A stretch of DNA of 44,479 bases, taken from the IMG/VR virus record IMGVR_UViG_3300002180_000023, positions 1-44,479 of that record; one strand, given 5' to 3'. A model generated the notes under the pieces. That model was given only the letters and a program-made list of their open reading frames with translations, did no database searches and was not told the origin of the DNA. Origin of the DNA: a virus. Below are positions 3,246 through 44,349 of this stretch, one piece after another. How positions within the stretch are numbered: position 1 is the stretch's first letter; each line of letters opens with the position of its first letter. The translations under genes were made by a program, and so were the position numbers.

Positions 3246-5457
3246 TGGTAAAGTTTATTTCAAATTCTATTGTTAATTGATATACATCTTGTTCGCTATC
3301 TGTGTTGCTGTATTTTGATACATTTGGAACTAAAGATGTTACGCCTTTGGTGTTGTTAGATAATAACCAAGCTCGCTTACTGGATAGCAAGGAGTCGATT
3401 CTTTTGGTATTATCTTTTAAATGAAATCCTGTATTAATAAATAATTTCTGTGCCTTTTTTACATCTACTTTCTGTAGGTATTCTAAAAAATCTTTATAAT
3501 TATTAATGGTTTTGTTGGCATAACCAAGAGGATATTTAAATTCTCCAGTAAACTCTAAACAATCGAGAACACCATGCTCATCTTCCCAAACTACATGGTT
3601 GCTTTGTGGTCCTTCTGGAAAAACAATATATTTTTGTGAAATATAATTTGAAGCTTCTTCGAACCAGTCTGCATTTAATAGACCTGTTACATTTTTGTAT
3701 AGTCTTATTTCTAGAACGTCTCCTGGTTGCGTTTCCGAAAAATTGTGCTTGTAAGCAAAGATGCGTTTGTTTCCTGGCGCATGGTAAATGGACTTTACAT
3801 ACTCGTTATTTTTATACACTCGCATTTGGTGGCTTTGCGTTTTATAAAAATTAAATAAGCAAACACTATTTGGAGTAACACGTAAAGGTTCTCTATAATA
3901 ATTTAAAATATATGTGTCTGTAAAAGGCGTATTTGGTTTACGACCTTTTATAAATTGAAGATTGGTATATGTTTTTTCGTAATTTAACGCTGGATCAGTT
4001 TTATGAACAAAATTTGCTACTAGATCCACTTCAGCTGGATTGTAATAATTTCTTATAAAGTTGGTTGAATCTAAAGGGAAATGATTATTAAAACTATCTA
4101 CTAAAACCGTATTAACATCAAGTAATTCTTTCATGATGTTTTTTAAGCTCTGACCAATAAAATATTTTGTTCTGTAATTAAAGAAACCTAATAAATAGGT
4201 GAGGAGTTCTGTATTTACTGAGTTAAATCTGTAATTAAAATATCTAACATCAAGCTCTAAATTAAGCTGAAAATTTGTGGTTTCAAAAAAATGCGATATC
4301 GTATTATAATCGTCTGTAAAATTCAAATCTTCTTCTGAAGCTCCAAGCATGACGTTTTCGAAAACTTGATGCTGCACATCTATTGTGTAATCGTTACCAC
4401 CAAGAGTTAAAGTAATAATACCTGTGTAAGTACCTGGAGAAAAATTATCTGAATGAATAGGTATTACAGTTATATATTTTTCTGATCCATCTAAAACATA
4501 AGTAACATCTAGCCATGCAGGTGCATCTATAATAACAGAACCTGGTCCATAAATGTTTACTGTTTGTGAAGCAGCTTCTTCTACATTTTTTATGGCCATA
4601 AATTCTAATAAATTTGTGGACAAAGAGACATCGCTATTTGCATATAATAAAACAAATAAACTATTTGGATTATAAGGAGATAACACACCATTGTTTCCAA
4701 ACAATACTCCAGTGTATAACCCTTCTGGTTCTGAATTAAATCCTGTGGTTAATCCAACATTAATAGATTGCGTACCATTTCCTTGATAAGTTTTTATGCC
4801 AGCTACATCTGTTTGAAGCGCAATATTACCTCCAGACAAAACAAAAAGGCTAGGTAGTTGAATTGTATATGCGCCTGTAACTGTAATGCTTAATGCTTGA
4901 GTAGCAGGAAGTGCTTCGTTTAAAACATGCTCGTAGCTTAAACTTTCAGGTGTTATAAGCACACTATCTGTAGATAATGTTCCTGAAACACGTAATGTTA
5001 TACTCCATGTAACTGTTTCAATATGATGTTCTGTAGAGTTTCCATCGACACCAACAACTATAAAAACAATACTAATGTTATAATTTCCTGCTTGTAATAA
5101 TTGAAAATTTTGAAAACTTAAAGTATTTGTTACTTCTAAATTTTCTTCTGTAAGAACATATCCTCCTGGTTGATCGTCTGCTATTTCTCCTGAAAAAGTA
5201 AGAATCGATTCAATAAAATCTCCTGGTCTACCAACTATAAGGTTGGTTTTAATTTTTATAGAATCGTAACCAGGTGTACTTGATATATAATTATGTATTA
5301 TTGTGTCTATATCAATATCTGCAGGAGTTGCTCCACCAATAACAAAATCTAAATATTGTGAGGAAGATGGAGAAAATGTCCAAGGTAAAGTTCTAAACGC
5401 ATTTGATGCTGAAGAAGAAAACTCTTGCGTGCTATGTAAATTAATATTGTATGCCAT
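3223..5457 (-). CDS. Tail protein with BACON/Ig-like repeats
   Basis: A 744-aa virion protein downstream of the tape measure. Residues of about 160-370 contain two beta-rich repeats that look like BACON-type domains: a strand with LSTNLLEF, a middle APAWLDV, then a YTGIITLTLGG end. BACON-like domains are common in Bacteroidota carbohydrate-active proteins and in gut phage tails. The C-terminal half (SVCLFNFYKTQSHQMRVYKNNEY and following) is a separate beta-rich region. A role in surface glycan contact or tail-tip building is inferred from position and domains. It starts 1 bp after the preceding gene ends. Confidence 0.72.
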   Translation of the reverse strand: MAYNINLHSTQEFSSSASNAFRTLPWTFSPSSSQYLDFVIGGATPADIDIDTIIHNYISSTPGYDSIKIKTNLIVGRPGDFIESILTFSGEIADDQPGGYVLTEENLEVTNTLSFQNFQLLQAGNYNISIVFIVVGVDGNSTEHHIETVTWSITLRVSGTLSTDSVLITPESLSYEHVLNEALPATQALSITVTGAYTIQLPSLFVLSGGNIALQTDVAGIKTYQGNGTQSINVGLTTGFNSEPEGLYTGVLFGNNGVLSPYNPNSLFVLLYANSDVSLSTNLLEFMAIKNVEEAASQTVNIYGPGSVIIDAPAWLDVTYVLDGSEKYITVIPIHSDNFSPGTYTGIITLTLGGNDYTIDVQHQVFENVMLGASEEDLNFTDDYNTISHFFETTNFQLNLELDVRYFNYRFNSVNTELLTYLLGFFNYRTKYFIGQSLKNIMKELLDVNTVLVDSFNNHFPLDSTNFIRNYYNPAEVDLVANFVHKTDPALNYEKTYTNLQFIKGRKPNTPFTDTYILNYYREPLRVTPNSVCLFNFYKTQSHQMRVYKNNEYVKSIYHAPGNKRIFAYKHNFSETQPGDVLEIRLYKNVTGLLNADWFEEASNYISQKYIVFPEGPQSNHVVWEDEHGVLDCLEFTGEFKYPLGYANKTINNYKDFLEYLQKVDVKKAQKLFINTGFHLKDNTKRIDSLLSSKRAWLLSNNTKGVTSLVPNVSKYSNTDSEQDVYQLTIEFEINFTNEFEIYT

Positions 5458-5458
5458 G

Positions 5459-5857
5459 TTAGTTTATGTTTATTGGTATATCTGCAGGATCTTGTACTTT
5501 TAAACTTGTTACAGTATTAATGGTTCCCAAACTACTTGTTACCCATAATTCTACAAATATGCCTTGATAGTTTAATTGCATTCTATTAGCATATGTAACT
5601 ACATTTGCTTTTAAATGGATAGCAATAACTGTTTTAAAAAAATCAAATATTTTAGTATTGGTTGTAATAAAAGGAATAACCTTAATGCCTTCTAAAGGGT
5701 CTCCTTGAATAATTTTTGCTACTGTTCCTGTTAAACAAAATGAAGTGTCTAATGATGTACCAAACTCTACGGTTGCCATTTCCATAATGATATTGCATAA
5801 ATTATTTGCTCTCTCGTCTGTAAAAACTTCTTGATCTGTAAAAGTGCTATAAGCCAT
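5459..5857 (-). CDS. Small tail protein following tape measure
   Basis: This 132-aa protein sits 1 bp downstream of the tape measure gene and 1 bp upstream of the BACON-repeat tail gene. In siphoviruses this slot often holds a distal-tail or tail-completion protein. No signal peptide, membrane segment or catalytic motif is visible. The C-terminus is beta-rich. Function is inferred only from its place in the operon. Confidence 0.68.
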   Translation of the reverse strand: MAYSTFTDQEVFTDERANNLCNIIMEMATVEFGTSLDTSFCLTGTVAKIIQGDPLEGIKVIPFITTNTKIFDFFKTVIAIHLKANVVTYANRMQLNYQGIFVELWVTSSLGTINTVTSLKVQDPADIPININ

Positions 5858-5858
5858 A

Positions 5859-8800
5859 TTATTTAGGTTTTCGGTTGTTTTGTATTTTTTCTAGACGCTT
5901 AAATTCGTCTTGAAGCTTTTTAATATTACGCATGTTTTTATCCATATAAGCTGGAACACCGTTTTGTTCTAGATTTTCTAAAATATTTGAGTTCCTCTCT
6001 AATGCAGCTGTAAGCATAGATAAAACACTTGAACTAGGAGAGGAGCTATCAGAATTATTAAACTCTGGATCTGGAGTACTTGTTTTATAATAACCATCTT
6101 CATAGCCTCTAACCCTTCCTATTTCTCTAGACAAACTATTTCTTAAATCAGGATGAAACTGCTTTAAGTCTTCTCCATTTATAATAAGTTCTGGAGATTT
6201 TTTACCACCTTCTCCAGCTAAAAACACTGTTGGCTCATCTACTATTCCAGATCTAGACTCACCACCATAGGTTGCATTAAACTGTTTACCATCTTGCTGT
6301 CTGGTTACAGGATATAAGCCTTTTTCGTAACCTTTTACTGGTTTGTTTTTGGCAATCATAGCAATTTGAACAGCTCCTAAAAGACCTGTCAAGGCTGCAA
6401 ATATAAAACTAGCAGGAGGTGGCATGGTTAAAGCAGAGGCAACACCTAAAGCTGTATTACCAATAGCTTGAGTTAATTGAATTTGCCAAGCACGTTTGGC
6501 TTGCTTGTATTCCATTTCTGCCTTACGCTTGTCGGCTTCAGTTTCTAAAGCTTTAATAGCATTATCGTACTGACGTTGGTTGATTAAACCATTATCTAGT
6601 AAAGATTTTTGACGTTCTTTCTTCCTGTTAGTTGCACGCTCGAAATTTGCTAATTCTTTTTTCTCATTAGCAGAAACAAATTGATGATACATTCCCCAAG
6701 CTTCGGCAAAAGCTATAACAGCCATTCCAGCTGCTCCAATTTTTCCTTCCAACGTGTCTAAGTTCTCATAAGTTTTCACCCACTGGTCTGCAGAGAAACC
6801 AAGCACATCCATTCCTCCAGCCTCACCAAGGTCTATCCCTTCTGTTCCTGAGTTTTGACCTCGCATAATTGCAAGCAACTTGTTTATTTCTGAAATTGAT
6901 AAGCCTAAATCTGCTAATCTGGTTTTAATTTCAGCTAATTGAGTGTCTGATAATAATTCTAAATTAAAACCTTCAAAGTTTCCAGATTCAATAACTGTAT
7001 TAAACTCTTTTACCAACTCTTCTAAATGAGCTTTACTTATTTCAAGGTTTTCTTTATCAAATTTCTCTTGAAGTTCTTTCTTAGCTTCATCATTACCTTC
7101 TAATAAAGCTATTTCATTATTGAATTGTGTTTGACGGAGAACCTTTTCATCTTCAAATGCTTTTTGTTTTTGAATCAGTGAATCTCCAATACCTTTTTCT
7201 AGAATGGTTCCTTTTCTAATCTGGTGAAGCTCGTTCTCGCTTTCTATTTGGGAGTTAACAGCTTCGTTATTTGCTATATAAGATGCTTTTAAATTAGCAT
7301 CTTTTGTTTTGGTAATAAGTTCCTGGCTTACTAATTTATTTTGAAGGTCTTCTATTTTTCTATAGTGGTTAAAATCTTCTAAAAGCATTTGTTTATCGAA
7401 ACCTTCTGTCATGATGTCTAGCTTGCTATCTTCTGCATCACGCATTATTTGGAGTAATTCTTCGGCTCGTTTTTTGGCGTCTTTTGCTGCGTTTCCTGTA
7501 CCACCTCCAGTTGGTGTTGGTGTTGGTGTTGGTGTTGGTGTTGGTGTTGGTGTAAAAGTTGATTCATCATAAACACTATCAGCCTGAGATTCTGTATAAT
7601 TTAAATCTTTTAATTGTTTAACTATATCAAGTCTTCTTCTTTCTTGTTCAGCATAATCCGCCTTTGCTTGATTTAATTTATTTACAGCTGCTTGTTCAAG
7701 TTTCACAGCCTCTAGATTTTCTATAGCAGTTAACCTAGATCGCTTATTTTTATTTTGATACTCTTCTGAAGCTTTATAATGTTTACGAGCTTCATCTGCT
7801 AATTCTCTTTGTAGTTGAACTTGTTGTGCTAATTGTAAAATATTGCTGCCAATTTCTGTTTTTTCATCTTTAGCTCCTTTTAATCTAGATACTAAAGTAG
7901 CAGCTTCTTCATCGGCTGCTAAACGCTTTAATTTTATTTGCTCCTTTACAGCTTCAGTGTTTAAAGTAAAAGCACCTGTTTCCTTATCAATAGCTACAAC
8001 TGAATCTCCTAAATGGTTTTTTAATTGTAGCGTAATTAAGTCTAATTCATGCTTCTGTTCAGCAGTTGGCTCTATACCATCTTCTGTAAGATCCATGTAA
8101 CTATCTAGTAATTTTTGACTTTCGTCTGCTAATTTCCTGTTTGCTTTTGCACTTTCGTAGGTGGCTTTAGTTTCCTCTGCAAATTTCTCGTTAACATCAT
8201 CAATAGCACCTATCATTCTTCCGAAAAAAGTTACTATTCCATTTAAACCGCTTTTTAATGCTTGAGAAGAAAAAGCGCCAAGTAGTTTCTTTTTTACCTT
8301 ATCTAATGAACCAGCAAGATTGTTATTCTTTAACTCATACTCATTGGTTAAAGAGGTTGCTTCAATTAAAGCTTTATTAGATTGTAATTGTCTTTCTTCA
8401 AGTAATTTTGTGTTACTAGCAAGAGCAGAAAGCGCAGCAACACCACGAGTACCACCTACTTCTAAATCGTCCAGCTTTTCAAGCATGACACCTAATCCTT
8501 CGTTATTCCCATCTAAGCCTTTAAGGAAGGCTATCATGGCTGCATTGGCATCGGTATTTAAAAGATTAGTGAATTCTTCTAGTTCGACACCTGCAATTTT
8601 TGCGTAGTCTGCTGAATTTTTGAACATGTCTATCCAAATTTTATTCATAGCAGTAGCAGACACTTCTACTGTTTGCCCAATTTCATCAAACGTTGCGGCA
8701 TAGGCTAAATTATCTTCTGCAGATATTTTTGTTTGAGCAGAAATACCAGCTTGGCGCTTTAAATAGTCTACTAAATATCCTGCTTGGTTTGCTCCAGAAG

Positions 8801-9695
8801 CAGACACTTCGTTAATTGAAGAACCTAAAGAAAGTAAGGCGTTTTTAAAATCTCGTCCAGTTTTTTCTCCAACCTTGTAGATTTTAACCATTTTACCAAC
8901 CTCACGAATTTGTTCGTCTCCAAGATCGTCTCCAAGAGCCACCTTCATCTGGTTAGCAACTTCTACAAAGTCTTTTATGTTTTTAACACCTTCAATACCT
9001 AATCTTCCACCTTCTTCGGCTAGTTTTAATAATTCTATTCTTGCAGTTCTGGTTTTGAATGCTCCAAACTCTTTATTTAATTGTTTAACTTCTTCTTTGG
9101 TTAAACCTGTAGTTTTCTGAACATCTGATTGAGCATCTGACAGCTTGCCGTTGTAGTCTATCATTTTTTGCAATGAAAGAACTACTCCTGTTCCTACAGC
9201 AATAACAGAAGCGCCAAGGGCAGCAAACTTATTAAAACCGTTTGCTAATTTTGATAAGCCTGATTCTGAAGCCTTAGCATTAAGAGATAATTTTTTTATT
9301 TGAGTATTAACTGAACGTAATTCTGCTTGAAGTTTTTTATACTTTCCAGATCCTGGTATCATGTTGTTTAATGACACACGAAGTTCTGAAGCACGCTGAC
9401 GTAATTGGCGCATTGAGAGTCCTGTAACGCCTATCTGTTTTTGCAGACTAGACATTTGAAGCTTATTAGATTTTAACTCAAGATTGTTTTTTCTAATTTC
9501 TGCAGTAACATTTCTATAAGCTTCGGTTTCTTTTTTGCCTTGGGCTATAAGTTTTGCTTTTTCGGCACGTAATTCTTTGTTAGAATTATTTAGCTCTCTC
9601 TGACGTTTTTCTAATTTATAAAGTTCTGCTTGTGCCTCGTTACCATTAATAACAACATCTACTTGAAGCTTTTCGCGTGTTAACTTACCAGCCAT
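5859..9695 (-). CDS. Phage tail tape measure protein
   Basis: At 1278 aa this is the longest gene. It sets tail length and is threaded through the tail tube. Residues 15-160 are charged coiled coil, followed by a TP901-like core (GKLSDAQSDVQKTTGLTKEEV near 180). A Pro-Thr repeat linker lies near residue 720, with more coiled coil after it and hydrophobic segments near residues 1050-1120 (AVIAFAEAWG, PPPASFIFAALTGLLGAVQIAM). It begins its own transcription unit: a terminator at 9762-9790, a late promoter at 9712-9752, then the ATG about 11 nt after the predicted start site. Downstream tail genes follow with 1-bp gaps. Confidence 0.93.
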   Translation of the reverse strand: MAGKLTREKLQVDVVINGNEAQAELYKLEKRQRELNNSNKELRAEKAKLIAQGKKETEAYRNVTAEIRKNNLELKSNKLQMSSLQKQIGVTGLSMRQLRQRASELRVSLNNMIPGSGKYKKLQAELRSVNTQIKKLSLNAKASESGLSKLANGFNKFAALGASVIAVGTGVVLSLQKMIDYNGKLSDAQSDVQKTTGLTKEEVKQLNKEFGAFKTRTARIELLKLAEEGGRLGIEGVKNIKDFVEVANQMKVALGDDLGDEQIREVGKMVKIYKVGEKTGRDFKNALLSLGSSINEVSASGANQAGYLVDYLKRQAGISAQTKISAEDNLAYAATFDEIGQTVEVSATAMNKIWIDMFKNSADYAKIAGVELEEFTNLLNTDANAAMIAFLKGLDGNNEGLGVMLEKLDDLEVGGTRGVAALSALASNTKLLEERQLQSNKALIEATSLTNEYELKNNNLAGSLDKVKKKLLGAFSSQALKSGLNGIVTFFGRMIGAIDDVNEKFAEETKATYESAKANRKLADESQKLLDSYMDLTEDGIEPTAEQKHELDLITLQLKNHLGDSVVAIDKETGAFTLNTEAVKEQIKLKRLAADEEAATLVSRLKGAKDEKTEIGSNILQLAQQVQLQRELADEARKHYKASEEYQNKNKRSRLTAIENLEAVKLEQAAVNKLNQAKADYAEQERRRLDIVKQLKDLNYTESQADSVYDESTFTPTPTPTPTPTPTPTGGGTGNAAKDAKKRAEELLQIMRDAEDSKLDIMTEGFDKQMLLEDFNHYRKIEDLQNKLVSQELITKTKDANLKASYIANNEAVNSQIESENELHQIRKGTILEKGIGDSLIQKQKAFEDEKVLRQTQFNNEIALLEGNDEAKKELQEKFDKENLEISKAHLEELVKEFNTVIESGNFEGFNLELLSDTQLAEIKTRLADLGLSISEINKLLAIMRGQNSGTEGIDLGEAGGMDVLGFSADQWVKTYENLDTLEGKIGAAGMAVIAFAEAWGMYHQFVSANEKKELANFERATNRKKERQKSLLDNGLINQRQYDNAIKALETEADKRKAEMEYKQAKRAWQIQLTQAIGNTALGVASALTMPPPASFIFAALTGLLGAVQIAMIAKNKPVKGYEKGLYPVTRQQDGKQFNATYGGESRSGIVDEPTVFLAGEGGKKSPELIINGEDLKQFHPDLRNSLSREIGRVRGYEDGYYKTSTPDPEFNNSDSSSPSSSVLSMLTAALERNSNILENLEQNGVPAYMDKNMRNIKKLQDEFKRLEKIQNNRKPK
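7513..7552 (-). repeat. Hexanucleotide tandem repeat (GGTGTT)n inside tape measure
   Basis: Six perfect copies of GGTGTT plus a partial one on the plus strand encode an alternating Pro-Thr linker in the tape measure. The 6-bp unit keeps the frame, so slippage would change linker length by Pro-Thr pairs rather than switch the gene off. Confidence 0.9.
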
Positions 9696-9711
9696 AATAT
9701 GGATTTTATGG

Positions 9712-9752
9712 CAATGTATTACTGCTTTTTAGTTCTTACAGTGACACGGTAA
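9712..9752 (-). promoter_or_regulatory. Late promoter copy 1 (tape measure unit)
   Basis: The motif (plus strand CAGTGACACGGTAA, 9739-9752) lies 27 bp upstream of a -7-like TACATTG (9718-9712, minus strand). The predicted start is about 9706 and the ATG is at 9695. A terminator lies just upstream. One of five similar sites; this copy has one base changed (CAG for CTG). Confidence 0.7.
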
Positions 9753-9761
9753 ATAGAGAGC

Positions 9762-9790
9762 AAAAAAAATCAACCTGTAGGTTGATTTTT
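9762..9790 (-). terminator. Rho-independent terminator before tape measure unit
   Basis: A 12-bp perfect stem, AAAAATCAACCT / AGGTTGATTTTT, has only two unpaired central bases. On the minus strand it is followed by a run of eight T. It ends the unit transcribed through 9882 and lies immediately upstream of late promoter copy 1. Confidence 0.85.
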
Positions 9791-35486: not shown

Positions 35487-35987
35487 TTAGAGATTGTAAA
35501 AGTTAATTGGAAATTCTTCAGATAAATTAAAATCGAAACTTCCATTTGTAAAACCCATTAATAGAATAGACTTCATTTTATAAGTAATGGTGGTTTTTTT
35601 ATTTGTGTTTACAACACTAATTTTTGGTTTAGCGTTTTGGTAGAAGTCGTTTCTTCCAAAAAACAGGACCATACCACTAGATAATTTAATGTAGATGTAT
35701 TTTACTTTTAAATAATCTTGAATACGCATAACACGTAATGGATCGTTGTTTGGAAATTGTAATGTTAGTTTGTGTTCATACAACATTCCAGCTTCAGTAT
35801 TGTTTCCTTTTTCTGTGTACGATGCTTTAGATGGTGAGAAATAAGCTGTCTTTGGCGTGCTATTTTGCACATACGTATTATAAAAAGGCTGTAAGCTTGT
35901 ATCTATTGAAGGGTTTGGTTGTCCAGTGAGATCTATTTCAATGCCACAAATATTAGGTAGAACTAGAACTTTTTTGCTAATATCCAA
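35487..35987 (-). CDS. Hypothetical structural protein leading first late unit
   Basis: A 166-aa beta-rich protein ending in SEEFPINFYNL. No ATG is available: the frame closes at a TAA six codons upstream, and the likely start is TTG 35987, about 15 nt after the predicted transcription start. No signal peptide or catalytic motif is visible. It is followed 2 bp later by the fibre-like gene. A tail or fibre-base role is inferred from position. Confidence 0.64.
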   Translation of the reverse strand: MDISKKVLVLPNICGIEIDLTGQPNPSIDTSLQPFYNTYVQNSTPKTAYFSPSKASYTEKGNNTEAGMLYEHKLTLQFPNNDPLRVMRIQDYLKVKYIYIKLSSGMVLFFGRNDFYQNAKPKISVVNTNKKTTITYKMKSILLMGFTNGSFDFNLSEEFPINFYNL

Positions 35988-36006: not shown

Positions 36007-36060
36007 AAGTAATAAAAATTCACAATATGGAAACTATAATATTTACTTATTGTGAATAAT
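36007..36060 (-). promoter_or_regulatory. First late promoter with repressor-like dyad
   Basis: On the minus strand a perfect -7 box, TACTTTTG (36014-36007), lies about 20 bp before the TTG start. Upstream, ATTCACAATAAGTAAAT (36060-36044) differs at one base from the dyad beside the repressor gene (43967-43983), and a facing half-site ATTCACAATA lies at 36021-36030. No clear -33 box or copy of the late motif is visible. Confidence 0.5.
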
Positions 36061-36088
36061 TTATAAAATATATTTATATCGTTTTTGG

Positions 36089-36296
36089 ACTAAAAAAGTT
36101 CAATACAGATAACTAATTGATTGTTAATGTATTATATATTGAACTTCTTGAACTACACCCTTTTTTCTTGAACTCGGTTTTTGTAGTTCAAGAAGTTCAA
36201 GGTTATTTTATACTAGTTCAAGGTAACTAACTTACTTATATATATATACTTAGAGAAAAAATATAGACTAACCTTGAACTATGGAACTTTTTTAGT
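36089..36296. repeat. Iteron-like array of eight AGTTCAA boxes (candidate origin)
   Basis: AGTTCAA occurs at 36097, 36185, 36194 and 36215, and its complement TTGAACT at 36139, 36148, 36168 and 36274. They are nested in perfect inverted repeats: 19 bp (36139-36157 / 36182-36200), 11 bp (36214-36224 / 36271-36281) and an outer 13 bp (36089-36101 / 36284-36296). A TA-rich stretch lies at 36236-36250. It sits between the replication block and the late block, with no gene. A replication origin or multi-site control region is likely. Confidence 0.65.
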
Positions 36297-36419
36297 ATAA
36301 AATATATTTTCATATAATTTTTATTACAAAAGGGTCGGAGGGATTTTTAAATAAAATATTCATGTAGTTCATGATGGACATCTAGTTACCAGGAACCCAA
36401 AATCGAAAGTTTGAAGCAC

Positions 36420-36528: not shown

Positions 36529-36711
36529 TTAATCTTTATAACCGATAGCAGTAAGTGATCCAGGAGCGCATAATAAGTTTTCTCCTGTTTCTTTAAATTT
36601 GTCGTCAATAACTTTAACCTGAAGCTTCTCTGCTTTTAAGTCGTTGTTGTCTTTGTAGAAGACATAACCTTTCTTTCCTGTTTTGGTTTTTACTATAAGT
36701 GCTTTTTCCAT
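36529..36711 (-). CDS. Small early protein
   Basis: A 60-aa, basic, beta-rich protein with one cysteine. It is the last gene of the early operon. Its start codon and leader lie in copy 1 of the 100-bp repeat, shared with the 78-aa gene upstream; both proteins open with ATGGAAAA. It is not otherwise similar to that neighbour. Function unknown. Confidence 0.66.
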   Translation of the reverse strand: MEKALIVKTKTGKKGYVFYKDNNDLKAEKLQVKVIDDKFKETGENLLCAPGSLTAIGYKD

Positions 36712-36803
36712 AAATTCTTAATGTGTTTATCTGCGTTAAAGCATCGCTAATATCGAGAGTCTTATTATCTCAACTCTTATCTGGATGCACTGTATTAAAA
36801 TTT
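36704..36803 (-). repeat. 100-bp duplicated leader, copy 1
   Basis: Identical to 37031-37130 except at 36752 (A, against G at 37079). It spans the intergenic leader and first codons of the 60-aa gene. On the transcribed strand it can fold as nested stems GCATC/GATGC and AGAGT/ACTCT, close to the start codon. No -7 box is visible, so an RNA-level control element is more likely than a promoter. Confidence 0.9.
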
Positions 36804-37038
36804 ATTGTATAAAAGATTCTTTTCTGTATTCTTCAATTTTGGTTTCAGGAATTAATACTCTTATTATTATGTAGCCTTTTGAAAAAAAACCTACTTGCTT
36901 CACTTCTTTAATCCCTTGGTAAATACCTTCATATTTCTGTATTCTAAACTCAATCTCTTTAGCAGATTTCAAGGTGTTAAATACAGCTTCAATCATTAAA
37001 TATCTTTTACTGTTTAATATTACTATTGGGTTTTCCAT
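36802..37038 (-). CDS. Small early protein
   Basis: A 78-aa mixed alpha/beta protein (FRIQKYEGIYQGIKEVKQVGFFSKGYIIIRVLIPE). Its leader and start lie in copy 2 of the 100-bp repeat, and its stop abuts copy 1. No domain is recognised. Confidence 0.66.
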   Translation of the reverse strand: MENPIVILNSKRYLMIEAVFNTLKSAKEIEFRIQKYEGIYQGIKEVKQVGFFSKGYIIIRVLIPETKIEEYRKESFIQ

Positions 37039-39265: not shown

Positions 39266-42200
39266 TTAACCAAATGGTAATTCGTCGTCTATTTTATCTC
39301 CAGATGAGCTGCGCTCACTAAAACTGTTTGGATCTGGAAAGGAGGAAGGTACTGGAGGCTCGTGTTCTGTGGAGTAGTCTCTTTCTAGTTCTACCACGTT
39401 TAATTCTTTCATCATGGTATAATCGAACGCATAGCAGCTACTACTTCCTGTATTAAAGTGGTGTCCTTTAACACTTCCAATAAAATAATTTTTACTTTTA
39501 AAATACCCTTTAAGTGTACTCTCGCCAATTGGCTCTTCGTTTTTACGCTTACTTACTGCTTCAACATAATGTTGATGGACCAGGTTTAATCTTAGAAATA
39601 ATATTTCATGGCCATTTTTGTTGGTATGCTCTTCGTAAATAGCTTCGCCACCTTTTTTTCCATGATAGATTTTAAAGTTTCTTTTTTCTTCAATCTTAAA
39701 CTCGTTGTCAATTTTAATTTTTCTGATATCTACAAGGAAACTTAATGTATGCCAGAACTTAGCAGTTCCTTCAGTTTCAGAAATCATACTGCTACTTGCT
39801 TGAATAGCATCTACGCAGTGGTTATAAAATTCTTTCCATGTAAAAGGAAACGCGAATTTTTTAAACAGAATTTTTACAGGAGCCATAATGGCTATAAAGT
39901 TGTTTAGCATACGCTCCATATACTCGTCTTTAACAAATTGCTGCAGGAGCTCTTTATTAAGTTCGTTAATGGTTGGTGTTAATTGCTTCTTAATTTCTTC
40001 GCGATATTTAAGTAAGTCTATTAACATGCTTGTCATTCCTGCCTTTTCGAATTGTTTTAATTCGGCAAAGGCTAGTTTTTCTTCAACCGAATACACACGC
40101 TCAATAAAATGTTCTGTAATAGATCTTGATGATAAAGCATTATCATCGCGTACAGACATGTATTGAGACAGGATAATACAAGCCGATTTAATTTTATCTA
40201 GCTTGGTTTTTTTATCTCCAGAGGCAACACCAGTTTCACGAGCTCTATCGTCAAAGGCTTGTTTAAGTACTTGGAATTTTATTTCGTGAATATTACTGTC
40301 ATGATATTCTTCTAATGCAATAACAATGTTTGAAATTCTACTTACACGACGAAAAAAACCAACAACAGATCCAGAGTTCAAGTCGAATCCTTTTTGTCCT
40401 GGAGTGAATATATTTGTTAAAGATTCTGAAAAAGTGGTCTTACCAGACTGTTTTTGCCCTGTTAAAAATAGGTGAGGAAACGAGCCATTATTATCTACAA
40501 TAATATCTCTAAAAATAGATGCTATTGCATAAGCAATTCCTGTGTATGCTTTTTTATTATAGATTTTAACCATCAGGTCCATCCATTTAGAAATAGCAAT
40601 CGGACTTTCTTTATAAACAAAACTTCTTACACCTTCGTAACTATCGTCGTCGTCTCTATTTCCTAGATTTACTTTAGAGCAGGATGGCGAATAGAATAAA
40701 TCTATTTTAGTTTTATCGTCTTTAAAGTCCTGGTCTTTTACTTGAACAATACCATAATCGTCTACACCTCTAAATTCGTCGCCTAATACAACACCATTAG
40801 CAAAGGCAAAGAAACCTTCAGGTTGTTGGCCAAGTGTTGTAAACTCGTAAGCCTTATCGAAACTATATAGTAATCTGTTTCTAAATTGTTTGAAATTAAA
40901 AGCGCTTACTGAAGCTTCAAAGGTGAAATTATATCTATCTACAATTTTCTCCTGGAATAAGGTGTATGAAGAAATTTCTTTATTGGTGAAATCTACTACT
41001 CCAGTTTCGCCAATATTATTAGTAAGCTCTAGAATACGTTTTCCTTCGTCTTGACTAGAGATAATATGAAATAACGGATTAACAATAAAGTTTGATCCTT
41101 TAAAGAAAATATCGTTAGTTGATTTAAAGTAGATGGCTTTTTCTAAATCTGAAGAAACAAAGCCATCTTTTTTAAATTGTTGTAAATCTCCATCGTCTGG
41201 AAAACCACGACTTTGCATAGACATTAATTCCTGGTCGTCGTTATTTTTAATACGCTGTATTCCTGCCTCTTTCATGTTACTTAAAACCGTAACCTTTAAG
41301 GTTAGGTCTTTATTAGTAACCTTCAGTTTTTTAGCTGCCTCTTTAATGTATTCTTTACGTTTTATAGGATCGTTAATAAGCATCAACGATTTTGCAATGG
41401 TTTCTACAGCGTTACTAACTTCGTCTGGATCTTGAGCTTCGTCACGAAGTTTAGACGCTTTCCAAAGTAGCGCATCAAACGTGTCGCCTTTTAAAACGTC
41501 TTGCAGATTTTCTACATTTCTAGCAAGTGTGTCAGGATCGCTTCCATTAGGTAGTTCTATAATAGATACTTTAAAGCCACATGATAATAATATGTCTAGG
41601 TCTTTATGTCCAGCATTTCGTCCTGCAACATCGCCATCGCGAACAATAACAACATGGTTACATAAGCGTTTTAATAATTTACATTGTGCTACAGAAAGAG
41701 CTGTGCCACATGTAGCAACAGTATTATTTACATTTTTGTTATGGAAACCCATAACGTCTGTATAACCTTCAACCAAATAGGCTCTATTGGTTTTTATAAT
41801 AGCAGCTTTGGCTTGATATAAACCGTATAAAATAGTGTCTTTTTTGTAAAGAGGTGTATCTGGAGAGTTTAAATATTTAGGAAAATCTTTTACTTTCTCG
41901 TCATTACTTCTTCGTCCACCAAAGGCTATAATACGTCCTTGTGTATTATGTATAGGAAAAATAATTCTATCTATAAAATAATCGAAATATTTTGGAGGAC
42001 TGTGTTTTAATAGTCCAACAGTTATGGCTTCGTTTACTTTTCCTTCTTCATGAAATCGTTTGTGTAATTGATGAAAAGAAGGTGCAGCATAACCTATTGA
42101 AAATTTGGTAATAGTTTCGTCTGAAAATTTACGTGTCTTTAAATTTTTATTTACCCAATGGTCTTTTTGTAAGTCTGTAAAGTTTTTAGCAAATACTTTG

Positions 42201-42565
42201 TTTGCCCATTCTACCATAACTTTATAAGAATCGAACTTGGCTCTTTCTTCTTGTTGTTCTGGAGATTCAACTTCTTCAATTAAAGCAATGTTTGCTAAGT
42301 CTGCAACTATTTTAATGGCTTGAATCCATTCTACGCCATCTTTTTGCATGGCATAACTTACAGGACCAAAACCACCAAAACCTGTAGAAAAACATTTCCA
42401 AATGTTTTTTGCTGGAGACACAATAAATGAAGGTGTGTTATCTTCTTGATTGAATGGCGATTTTCCTTTTAAGTTTGCGCCAGCTTTTTTAAGTGTCCAT
42501 ATTTTAGGGATTATTTCTTCAACAGAAACATCAAGTACTCGATCTATACTTTCTTTTGTAATCAT
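39266..42565 (-). CDS. Primase-ATPase (replicative) with degenerate zinc finger
   Basis: A 1099-aa replication protein. Residues 30-70 match the DnaG zinc-binding domain in outline (SPFNQEDNTPSF, then WKCFSTGFGG), but of the four CHC2 ligands only one cysteine remains. Residues of about 200-340 are the TOPRIM primase core, with EGYTDV (E266) and DGDVAGRN (D310, D312). Around residue 700 is a P-loop (GQKQSGKTT) and near 750 a Walker B-like IVIALEEYH, so a helicase-type ATPase follows. The end reads GDKIDDELPFG, like the acidic tip of SSB. It is probably the main initiator or primase of phage replication. Confidence 0.88.
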   Translation of the reverse strand: MITKESIDRVLDVSVEEIIPKIWTLKKAGANLKGKSPFNQEDNTPSFIVSPAKNIWKCFSTGFGGFGPVSYAMQKDGVEWIQAIKIVADLANIALIEEVESPEQQEERAKFDSYKVMVEWANKVFAKNFTDLQKDHWVNKNLKTRKFSDETITKFSIGYAAPSFHQLHKRFHEEGKVNEAITVGLLKHSPPKYFDYFIDRIIFPIHNTQGRIIAFGGRRSNDEKVKDFPKYLNSPDTPLYKKDTILYGLYQAKAAIIKTNRAYLVEGYTDVMGFHNKNVNNTVATCGTALSVAQCKLLKRLCNHVVIVRDGDVAGRNAGHKDLDILLSCGFKVSIIELPNGSDPDTLARNVENLQDVLKGDTFDALLWKASKLRDEAQDPDEVSNAVETIAKSLMLINDPIKRKEYIKEAAKKLKVTNKDLTLKVTVLSNMKEAGIQRIKNNDDQELMSMQSRGFPDDGDLQQFKKDGFVSSDLEKAIYFKSTNDIFFKGSNFIVNPLFHIISSQDEGKRILELTNNIGETGVVDFTNKEISSYTLFQEKIVDRYNFTFEASVSAFNFKQFRNRLLYSFDKAYEFTTLGQQPEGFFAFANGVVLGDEFRGVDDYGIVQVKDQDFKDDKTKIDLFYSPSCSKVNLGNRDDDDSYEGVRSFVYKESPIAISKWMDLMVKIYNKKAYTGIAYAIASIFRDIIVDNNGSFPHLFLTGQKQSGKTTFSESLTNIFTPGQKGFDLNSGSVVGFFRRVSRISNIVIALEEYHDSNIHEIKFQVLKQAFDDRARETGVASGDKKTKLDKIKSACIILSQYMSVRDDNALSSRSITEHFIERVYSVEEKLAFAELKQFEKAGMTSMLIDLLKYREEIKKQLTPTINELNKELLQQFVKDEYMERMLNNFIAIMAPVKILFKKFAFPFTWKEFYNHCVDAIQASSSMISETEGTAKFWHTLSFLVDIRKIKIDNEFKIEEKRNFKIYHGKKGGEAIYEEHTNKNGHEILFLRLNLVHQHYVEAVSKRKNEEPIGESTLKGYFKSKNYFIGSVKGHHFNTGSSSCYAFDYTMMKELNVVELERDYSTEHEPPVPSSFPDPNSFSERSSSGDKIDDELPFG

Positions 42566-43069: not shown

Positions 43070-43639
43070 TTATACTAAATTGAGGTCTCTAACAACTTCG
43101 GCAGCGCCTTGCTTGGTTTGAATACTTAATTTAGCGTACAGGATGCGCTTTAATTTATGAAGCGTTCCCATTGGCACGTTTAACTTTTCGCCAATAACCT
43201 CGTTGGTATCGTTAGTGGTAAGAAGTATTAATATTTTTATATCTGCAGTAGTAAGCTCGATGTTATTGTATATAGGGTTCTTACATACAATACCTTCACC
43301 TTTGCATGATCCACGAAATGGACATGGCCAATACTCGCCATCTTGTAATTGAAAATTTTTGATATCTGGAGTAAAGTCTAAACCTCCAAATCTGCAGGAA
43401 GCGAATTTCTTTAGCTGCTGTTGTTCAGATTCAGGATGCCATTCTTCTAAAATAGCTTGAGCTTCAGGCAATTTATTTAATGTTCCCTGTATTGTTTGAT
43501 GGTAAGTGTATGGGAGATCTTCGAAGTCTACCATTTTACCTTTAGTAAATACTTTTACTAAATTACCAATGTTGAAAATTTCTAAGCCTGAACAATTAAG
43601 TCCAGGATAAATGCGTGGATTTGCGTCTGTTGATGTCAT
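43070..43639 (-). CDS. LuxR-type HTH regulator with four-cysteine segment
   Basis: A 189-aa protein. A central region has C82, C106, C112 and C119 (SCRFGG, then CPFRGSCKGEGIVC), which may hold zinc or an Fe-S cluster. Residues of about 128-185 form a LuxR/GerE-type helix-turn-helix (ELTTADIKILILLTTNDTNEVIGEKLNVPMGTLHKLKRIL). It is the second early gene and the best candidate for the activator of the five-copy late promoters, by timing and fold only. It is followed by a hairpin terminator. Confidence 0.74.
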   Translation of the reverse strand: MTSTDANPRIYPGLNCSGLEIFNIGNLVKVFTKGKMVDFEDLPYTYHQTIQGTLNKLPEAQAILEEWHPESEQQQLKKFASCRFGGLDFTPDIKNFQLQDGEYWPCPFRGSCKGEGIVCKNPIYNNIELTTADIKILILLTTNDTNEVIGEKLNVPMGTLHKLKRILYAKLSIQTKQGAAEVVRDLNLV

Positions 43640-44031: not shown

Positions 44032-44349
44032 ATGGAATTTGGAGAAAAATTCAAGGTTATTTTAAAAGAAAAAAAGGTGACACAGGCTAAATTTGCTGAC
44101 GATTGCAACTTACATAAAGGTTATGTTAGTAGAATTTTAAATGGAGAAAGTCCGAGTGCAGATTTTATAATGAAAGCTGTAGGATATTTTCCGGACATCA
44201 ATTTGTATCATTTGTTTTTTGATGGGCAAGAGAGATCTGTTACAAACGAACCTGATTCAGACTACAAAAAGGAGGGAAATCCAATTGAAATAATAGACAA
44301 TATAGAGGTTCAATTAAAGAAATTAAAGTCCTTAGTGACACAAAAGTGA
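44032..44349 (+). CDS. CI-like repressor (XRE-family HTH)
   Basis: A 105-aa protein divergent from the early operon. Residues 5-50 form an XRE helix-turn-helix (FKVILKEKKVTQAKFADDCNLHKGYVSRILNGE). The C-terminus (about 75-105) is helical and may form dimers. There is no LexA-type peptidase domain, so induction would need another route. Its last codons contain two TGACACA repeats (44336-44342, 44347-44353) near the right attachment site. Confidence 0.82.
   Translation: MEFGEKFKVILKEKKVTQAKFADDCNLHKGYVSRILNGESPSADFIMKAVGYFPDINLYHLFFDGQERSVTNEPDSDYKKEGNPIEIIDNIEVQLKKLKSLVTQK

Follow-up and report, generated by a model that had tools for sequence, protein, structure and literature searches.

A gene-free array of AGTTCAA boxes is a probable replication origin in a temperate flavobacterial phage

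The stretch of 44,479 nt analyzed here (the window) contains, at positions 36085–36297, a gene-free array of short boxes that is probably the replication origin of this phage, recognized by the C-terminal domain of its primase-helicase; from sequence comparison and analogy with known systems, we put the probability of this reading at about 0.83. It is supported by clustering of the boxes beyond chance, by a box-by-box alignment with the arrays of two relatives (G530 and G724), by the presence of nearly always one array per genome, by the link between array and primase-helicase, and by a Mantel correlation of the two. The 44-kb record is a temperate phage, with a tRNA-Val (23–98) and genes for a tyrosine integrase (205–1392), a tape measure protein, and a large primase. 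Its late genes are syntenic with those of the tailed phages laban6-1 and 6H, and the tRNA alone was matched when the window was searched against Rfam.

The array is composed of eight exact AGTTCAA boxes and two boxes with one mismatch. As given in the preliminary description, the exact boxes span 184 bp (36097–36280), four per strand, starting at 36097, 36185, 36194, and 36215 on the plus strand and at 36139, 36148, 36168, and 36274 on the minus strand. Some of them stand alone (36097–36103 and 36215–36221, plus; 36168–36174, minus), and others form tandem pairs with a period of 9 bp (36139–36154, minus; 36185–36200, plus). The one-mismatch boxes flank the exact ones at 36085–36091 (TTGGACT) and 36282–36288 (TGGAACT), and the latter forms with the last exact box an outer pair, AGTTCCATAGTTCAA (36274–36288, minus), which matches AGTTCCACAGTTCCAC in G530 and G724. 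Three inverted repeats had been described as perfect and nested. All three are perfect: one of 13 bp with arms at 36089–36101 (ACTAAAAAAGTTC) and 36284–36296, one of 19 bp at 36139–36157/36182–36200, and one of 11 bp at 36194–36204/36270–36280, the first and the last read directly. Both shorter repeats lie inside the 13-bp pair, but they interlock instead of nesting, because both use the box at 36194.

Between the box groups lie two AT-rich spacers, one at 36222–36273 (77% AT, including TATATATATA), which is a candidate melting region, and one at 36104–36138 (83% AT), in a region (36085–36297) that is 74% AT as a whole. Such spacers are also found between the box groups of the relatives. The TA-rich run reported beside the boxes is at 36238–36248, and the absence of genes was likewise borne out, as there is no ORF of at least 60 aa between 35988 and 36528.

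The clustering of AGTTCAA is beyond chance. Over the window the word is not enriched (16 copies observed, 11.7 expected), and half of the copies are within the 184 bp. Dinucleotide shuffling of the window, repeated 200 times, gave a maximum of 3 or 4 copies of any 7-mer per 200 bp, compared with the 8 observed, and in shuffles of the gap alone the maximum was 4, reached once in 2000. The GC skew was uninformative; that it has no clear turn at the array counts against an origin.

The proposed reader of the boxes is encoded at 39266–42565 on the minus strand. This protein of 1099 aa combines, as judged from profiles and a structure model, a DnaG primase with a helicase that resembles Cch of SCCmec and is kin of the SaPI initiators. 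Residues 1–414 correspond to DnaG in NCBIfam, with DnaG domains found there by Pfam, and a profile of 11 relatives matches the SCCmec Cch helicase 5dgk (profile positions 643–938, E 1.3e-8). An AlphaFold2 model (mean pLDDT 71, pTM 0.44) searched with Foldseek gave DnaG with an E of 3e-27 and Cch 5dgk with an E of 1.3e-12 and a TM of 0.52 by target length. The last folded part of the model (residues 988–1048), within the C-terminal segment of residues 985–1055 (39401–39613, minus), has the order strand-helix-helix-strand-strand at fair confidence, and we infer a winged helix here, the candidate reader of the boxes. The DnaG-type primases of these phages are without most of the zinc-binding Cys/His of CHC2 (SPF.., KDFSSG, or KCFSTG; residues 23–82 in the window).

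Comparison of the same gap in relatives had been named beforehand as a check, and its outcome was an array that is present, a layout that is conserved, and a box word that differs. Neither the whole primase-helicase nor its C-terminal half brought up a relative in scans of viral contigs; relatives were found with the protein of the adjacent gene (35487–35987, minus), a phrog_23018 member that is the first late gene and served as synteny anchor, outside the origin. In L004, L010, and a Maribacter prophage (L007), the same gap has a GTTACA array on both strands. A DNA pattern scan with ACTGTAACTTTGTAAC, blind to genes, found further GTTACA arrays, and the loci with such an array and the same late gene close by are 11 in all. 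In total, about 25 related flavobacterial phages and prophages carry an array of this kind, nearly always one per genome, with boxes specific to the lineage (GTTACA, GTTGAGAAAG, TGTGGAAAG, CAGGATGTG, and others); beyond the named loci (Maribacter, Pustulibacterium, Algibacter, and Flavobacterium phages), the taxonomy reflects the scope of the search only. No paper on origins in these phages was found in the open-licence literature.

When 17 related phage or prophage sequences were scanned for dense 6-mers, 15 had one outstanding array, with 7–12 boxes per 260 bp compared with 3–6 elsewhere. A dense array is absent from G006 and from several distant type B loci (see below), namely G159, G002:C4, G274, and G398, which counts against the origin reading. 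The near-identical G008 (L191, ~561) and G012 (~20141; L189, ~141) share an identical second dense place with 11 ATGCAG per 260 bp, far from their GTTACA array. Another scan, with the pattern AGTTCAAGAAGTTCAA, was discarded: for the most part its matches were either, by eye, chance or coding-like repeats (L087, L153, L137, L074) or unrelated arrays (L141, L092, L052). In these three unrelated phages (L141 1274–1600, L092 9566–9870, L052 1516–1830) and in L080, AGTTCAA or GGTTCAA repeats adjoin a gene that, from its start, looks like an integrase. In L010, a gene for an Xer-like tyrosine recombinase (7643–8443) is directly upstream of the GTTACA array, and in G428 a GTAAAC array (L268 6841–7100) is directly behind a gene of 898 aa.

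The replication proteins of these phages are of two kinds, the DnaG-type primase-helicase (window, G005, G007, G002, G003, and G014) and type B, of 937–953 aa, which by BLAST has no significant similarity to the former over most of its length. At the 11 loci with the commonest type of primase-helicase (G005, G007 [laban6-1], G002, G003, G014, G158, G045, G022, G027, G680, and phage 6H), the array starts within ~110 bp of the stop codon of the gene. Their box words are GTTGAGAAAG in laban6-1 and G002, TGTGGAAAG in G005, GTTTGAAA/GTGTTGAAAC in G014, CAGGATGTG in G158, TGTTGGATGTG in G045, GTGTTGGAA in G022, GTGTTGAAAG in G027, TGTTGGAAA in G680, and GTTGAGA in 6H, and G003 has a similar array directly behind the primase gene. 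By eye, the common layout begins with two inverted boxes and an AT-rich spacer, continues with a set of three or four direct and then one or two inverted boxes, and ends with a further AT-rich spacer and two to four direct boxes. The type B primase-helicases go with the GTTACA arrays, which the pattern scan found independently.

From the arrays directly behind the commonest-type primase genes, it follows that the array goes with the primase-helicase and not with the late gene. The same holds for the type B loci G292, where the array is 5' of the primase gene, and G333. The main misfit is G014 (L196), which has two arrays (5401–5660 and 9560–9770): GTTTGAAA/GTGTTGAAAC behind the primase gene, and at the late gene a complete GTTACA array without a type B primase-helicase. 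With GTTACA boxes and a commonest-type primase, this genome seemed to break the rule that box type follows broad primase type, until the array behind its primase came to light. The GTTACA array lies in a block of ~1.2 kb that is 96–98% identical to G013, because of which it may be the passenger of a recent transfer, or it may have a second function. The window array also counts against the origin model in its position, since it is ~3.0 kb from the stop of the primase-helicase and does not adjoin the gene.

A distance of 3–7 kb is shared by the window and its nearest relatives. By identity of the primase-helicase, these are G530 (40%), G724 (39%), and G137 (37%), the first two of which are prophages, and in all three the array is away from the primase gene. 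In a MAFFT alignment, it is the boxes through which the arrays of the window, G530, and G724 match: the outer pair AAAAAAGTTCCATAGTTCAAGG of the window stands against AAAAAAGTTCCACAGTTCCACA, and the inner boxes AGTTCAA correspond to AGTTCCAC. The spacers align loosely, a few boxes of the relatives have no partner in the window, and the genes that flank the two arrays differ from those of the window. The degenerate outer box of the window, AGTTCCA, resembles the word of G530 and G724, so the simplest reading would be a concerted change of the box word, which is to be expected where all the boxes have to be read by a single protein; the direction of the change we infer. Over 14 loci, box content and the identity of the primase-helicases were correlated (Mantel r=0.41, p=0.002), which shows co-inheritance and does not separate co-evolution from common descent. 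It counts against our reading that the correlation is equally good for the primase part and for the C-terminal part.

The model of the reader was adopted because of what the literature describes for C-terminal domain binding by SaPI Rep and Cch2 and for PICI origins. The SaPI Rep helicase is reported to recognize, through its C-terminal domain, iterons directly downstream of its own gene, and the C-terminal domain of Cch2, taken alone, to bind the repeats of its putative origin in vitro (PMC7581432). A PICI origin is described as lying immediately 3' of the gene for the initiator, with two sets of iterons on either side of an AT-rich region (PMC6092414). In the window, the primase-helicase would by analogy bind the AGTTCAA boxes via its C-terminal domain, and replication would begin at the array: the protein would form helicase rings whose opposite orientations follow those of the box groups, and it would melt the AT-rich spacers and load itself. 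Two forks would then leave in opposite directions, while the DnaG half would lay primers, possibly first at a neighboring double C-tract.

With the pri-rep-ori of SaPIs and PICIs (PMC6092414; PMC7581432 citing Ubeda et al. 2007), the system shares an initiator helicase that loads itself and in some cases is fused to a primase, which in the window would be the Rep/Cch-like protein that matches 5dgk by profile and by Foldseek; multiple short element-specific iterons, here eight AGTTCAA and other words in the relatives; and an AT-rich region between iteron sets. An origin directly 3' of the initiator gene is found in the 11 commonest-type relatives, but not in the window (3.0 kb) and its nearest relatives (3–7 kb). 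Unlike satellites without a full virion gene set of their own, these are complete tailed phages, the window having the tape measure and tailed-phage late genes. The primase fused to the helicase is here of the DnaG type, and instead of two iteron sets there are four box groups of alternating orientation plus the double C-tract. SCCmec Cch/Cch2 is similar in that profile and fold both match Cch to the window protein's C-terminal half, and in the binding of the putative origin by the isolated Cch2 domain (PMC7581432), but Cch is without a DnaG fusion and the Cch2 origin has three iterons only. Lambdoid origins (O protein, PMC7466680) also have a phage-coded initiator, repeated iterons in phage-specific number, and an AT-rich region; the lambda iterons, however, are ~19 bp long and lie within the gene for O, which is no helicase, whereas the boxes here are of 7 bp in a gene-free stretch. 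Our verdict is that array and primase-helicase would form a new phage variant of the SaPI/PICI-like initiator–origin kind.

The preliminary description had called the array a phage origin or a bidirectional control region, on the ground that it lies between the terminator of the replication genes and the late promoter. The terminator was found, as a hairpin behind the early genes on the minus strand (36449–36423), but the positional argument does not generalize to the relatives, given the commonest-type arrays right behind the primase gene and that of G292 5' of it. The origin is nevertheless favored over a control region, because the layout is conserved, there is nearly always one array per genome, and the tie is to the primase-helicase and not the late gene. 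An operator array for the late operon or an early/late switch, bound by the LuxR-like regulator (43070–43639) or the CI-like repressor (44032–44349), is unlikely. It would suit the location, 0.1–0.7 kb upstream of the first late gene, that the array has in the window and in those GTTACA phages that carry phrog_23018, as well as the inverted repeat ATTCACAATA..TATTGTGAAT between array and gene (36018–36057), which L004 keeps together with TTTTTATTAYTTTTGGTAAAACCCTA and which is a candidate late-promoter control site. The arrays of G005, G007, and G002, however, are 2–5 kb from the late gene, those of G333 and G530 are followed by other genes, and no exact AGTTCAA was found near either regulator gene. 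The LuxR-like protein was rejected as box binder, since the window (GTLHKLKRILYAKL) and G004 (GSLHKMKRILYAKL) have almost the same recognition helix at its C-terminus despite different boxes (AGTTCAA and GTTACA).

Plasmid partition sites also contain repeat arrays in both orientations, and so a centromere-like stability site, or a packaging site, was considered. We regard this as quite improbable, as the array is placed according to the primase-helicase rather than to a terminase or a gene for partition, the phage integrates, and no partition gene was recognized adjoining the array among early genes only part of which have family matches. Hardly credible is a recombination or attachment site with integrase arm sites: the Xer-like gene of L010 and the repeats of L141, L092, L052, and L080 would fit it, but the integrase and tRNA of the window are at the other end of the record (23–1392), 35 kb away, the L007 array is inside a prophage in Maribacter, and no recombinase gene is beside the other arrays compared.

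Upstream of the array is the double C-tract CCCTCCGACCC (36332–36342, minus), a candidate site for priming or for a factor. On the primase-coding strand, 21 of 24 arrays are preceded within 130 bp by two C-tracts, compared with 0.6–9.4% of 130-bp windows of the same records, the pattern having first been noticed in these same arrays; G530, G724, and G680 also have it. In several commonest-type phages, the tracts are inside codons of the primase C-terminus; they lie outside that gene in the window, 6H, G007, G137, and the type B phages. Because CCC is where the DnaG primases of Clostridium difficile and Aquifex begin their primers (PMC5204125), priming here is possible by analogy and is a lead only; these phage primases are without most of the zinc ligands. 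A broader proposal, which we hold tentatively and at somewhat under even odds, is that temperate phages of Flavobacteriaceae share a modular initiator–origin system with a constant layout and double C-tract, whose word is replaced array-wide between lineages and gives each phage a private origin code, the DnaG–Cch fusion reading the boxes and priming at the C-tract. The SaPI/PICI-like kind of system would here occur in complete phages of another phylum, including the isolated 6H and laban6-1. Boxes and readers, paired in many natural combinations, would be a ready data set for studying DNA reading by an initiator helicase and the joint change of word at the roughly ten sites of an array, and there would be a simple rule for locating origins in flavobacterial phages.

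Beyond the array, two small minus-strand genes (36529–36711 and 36802–37038) with different bodies have leaders and starts that are spanned by a direct repeat of 123 nt (36684–36806/37011–37133, 91% identity), perhaps a shared leader.
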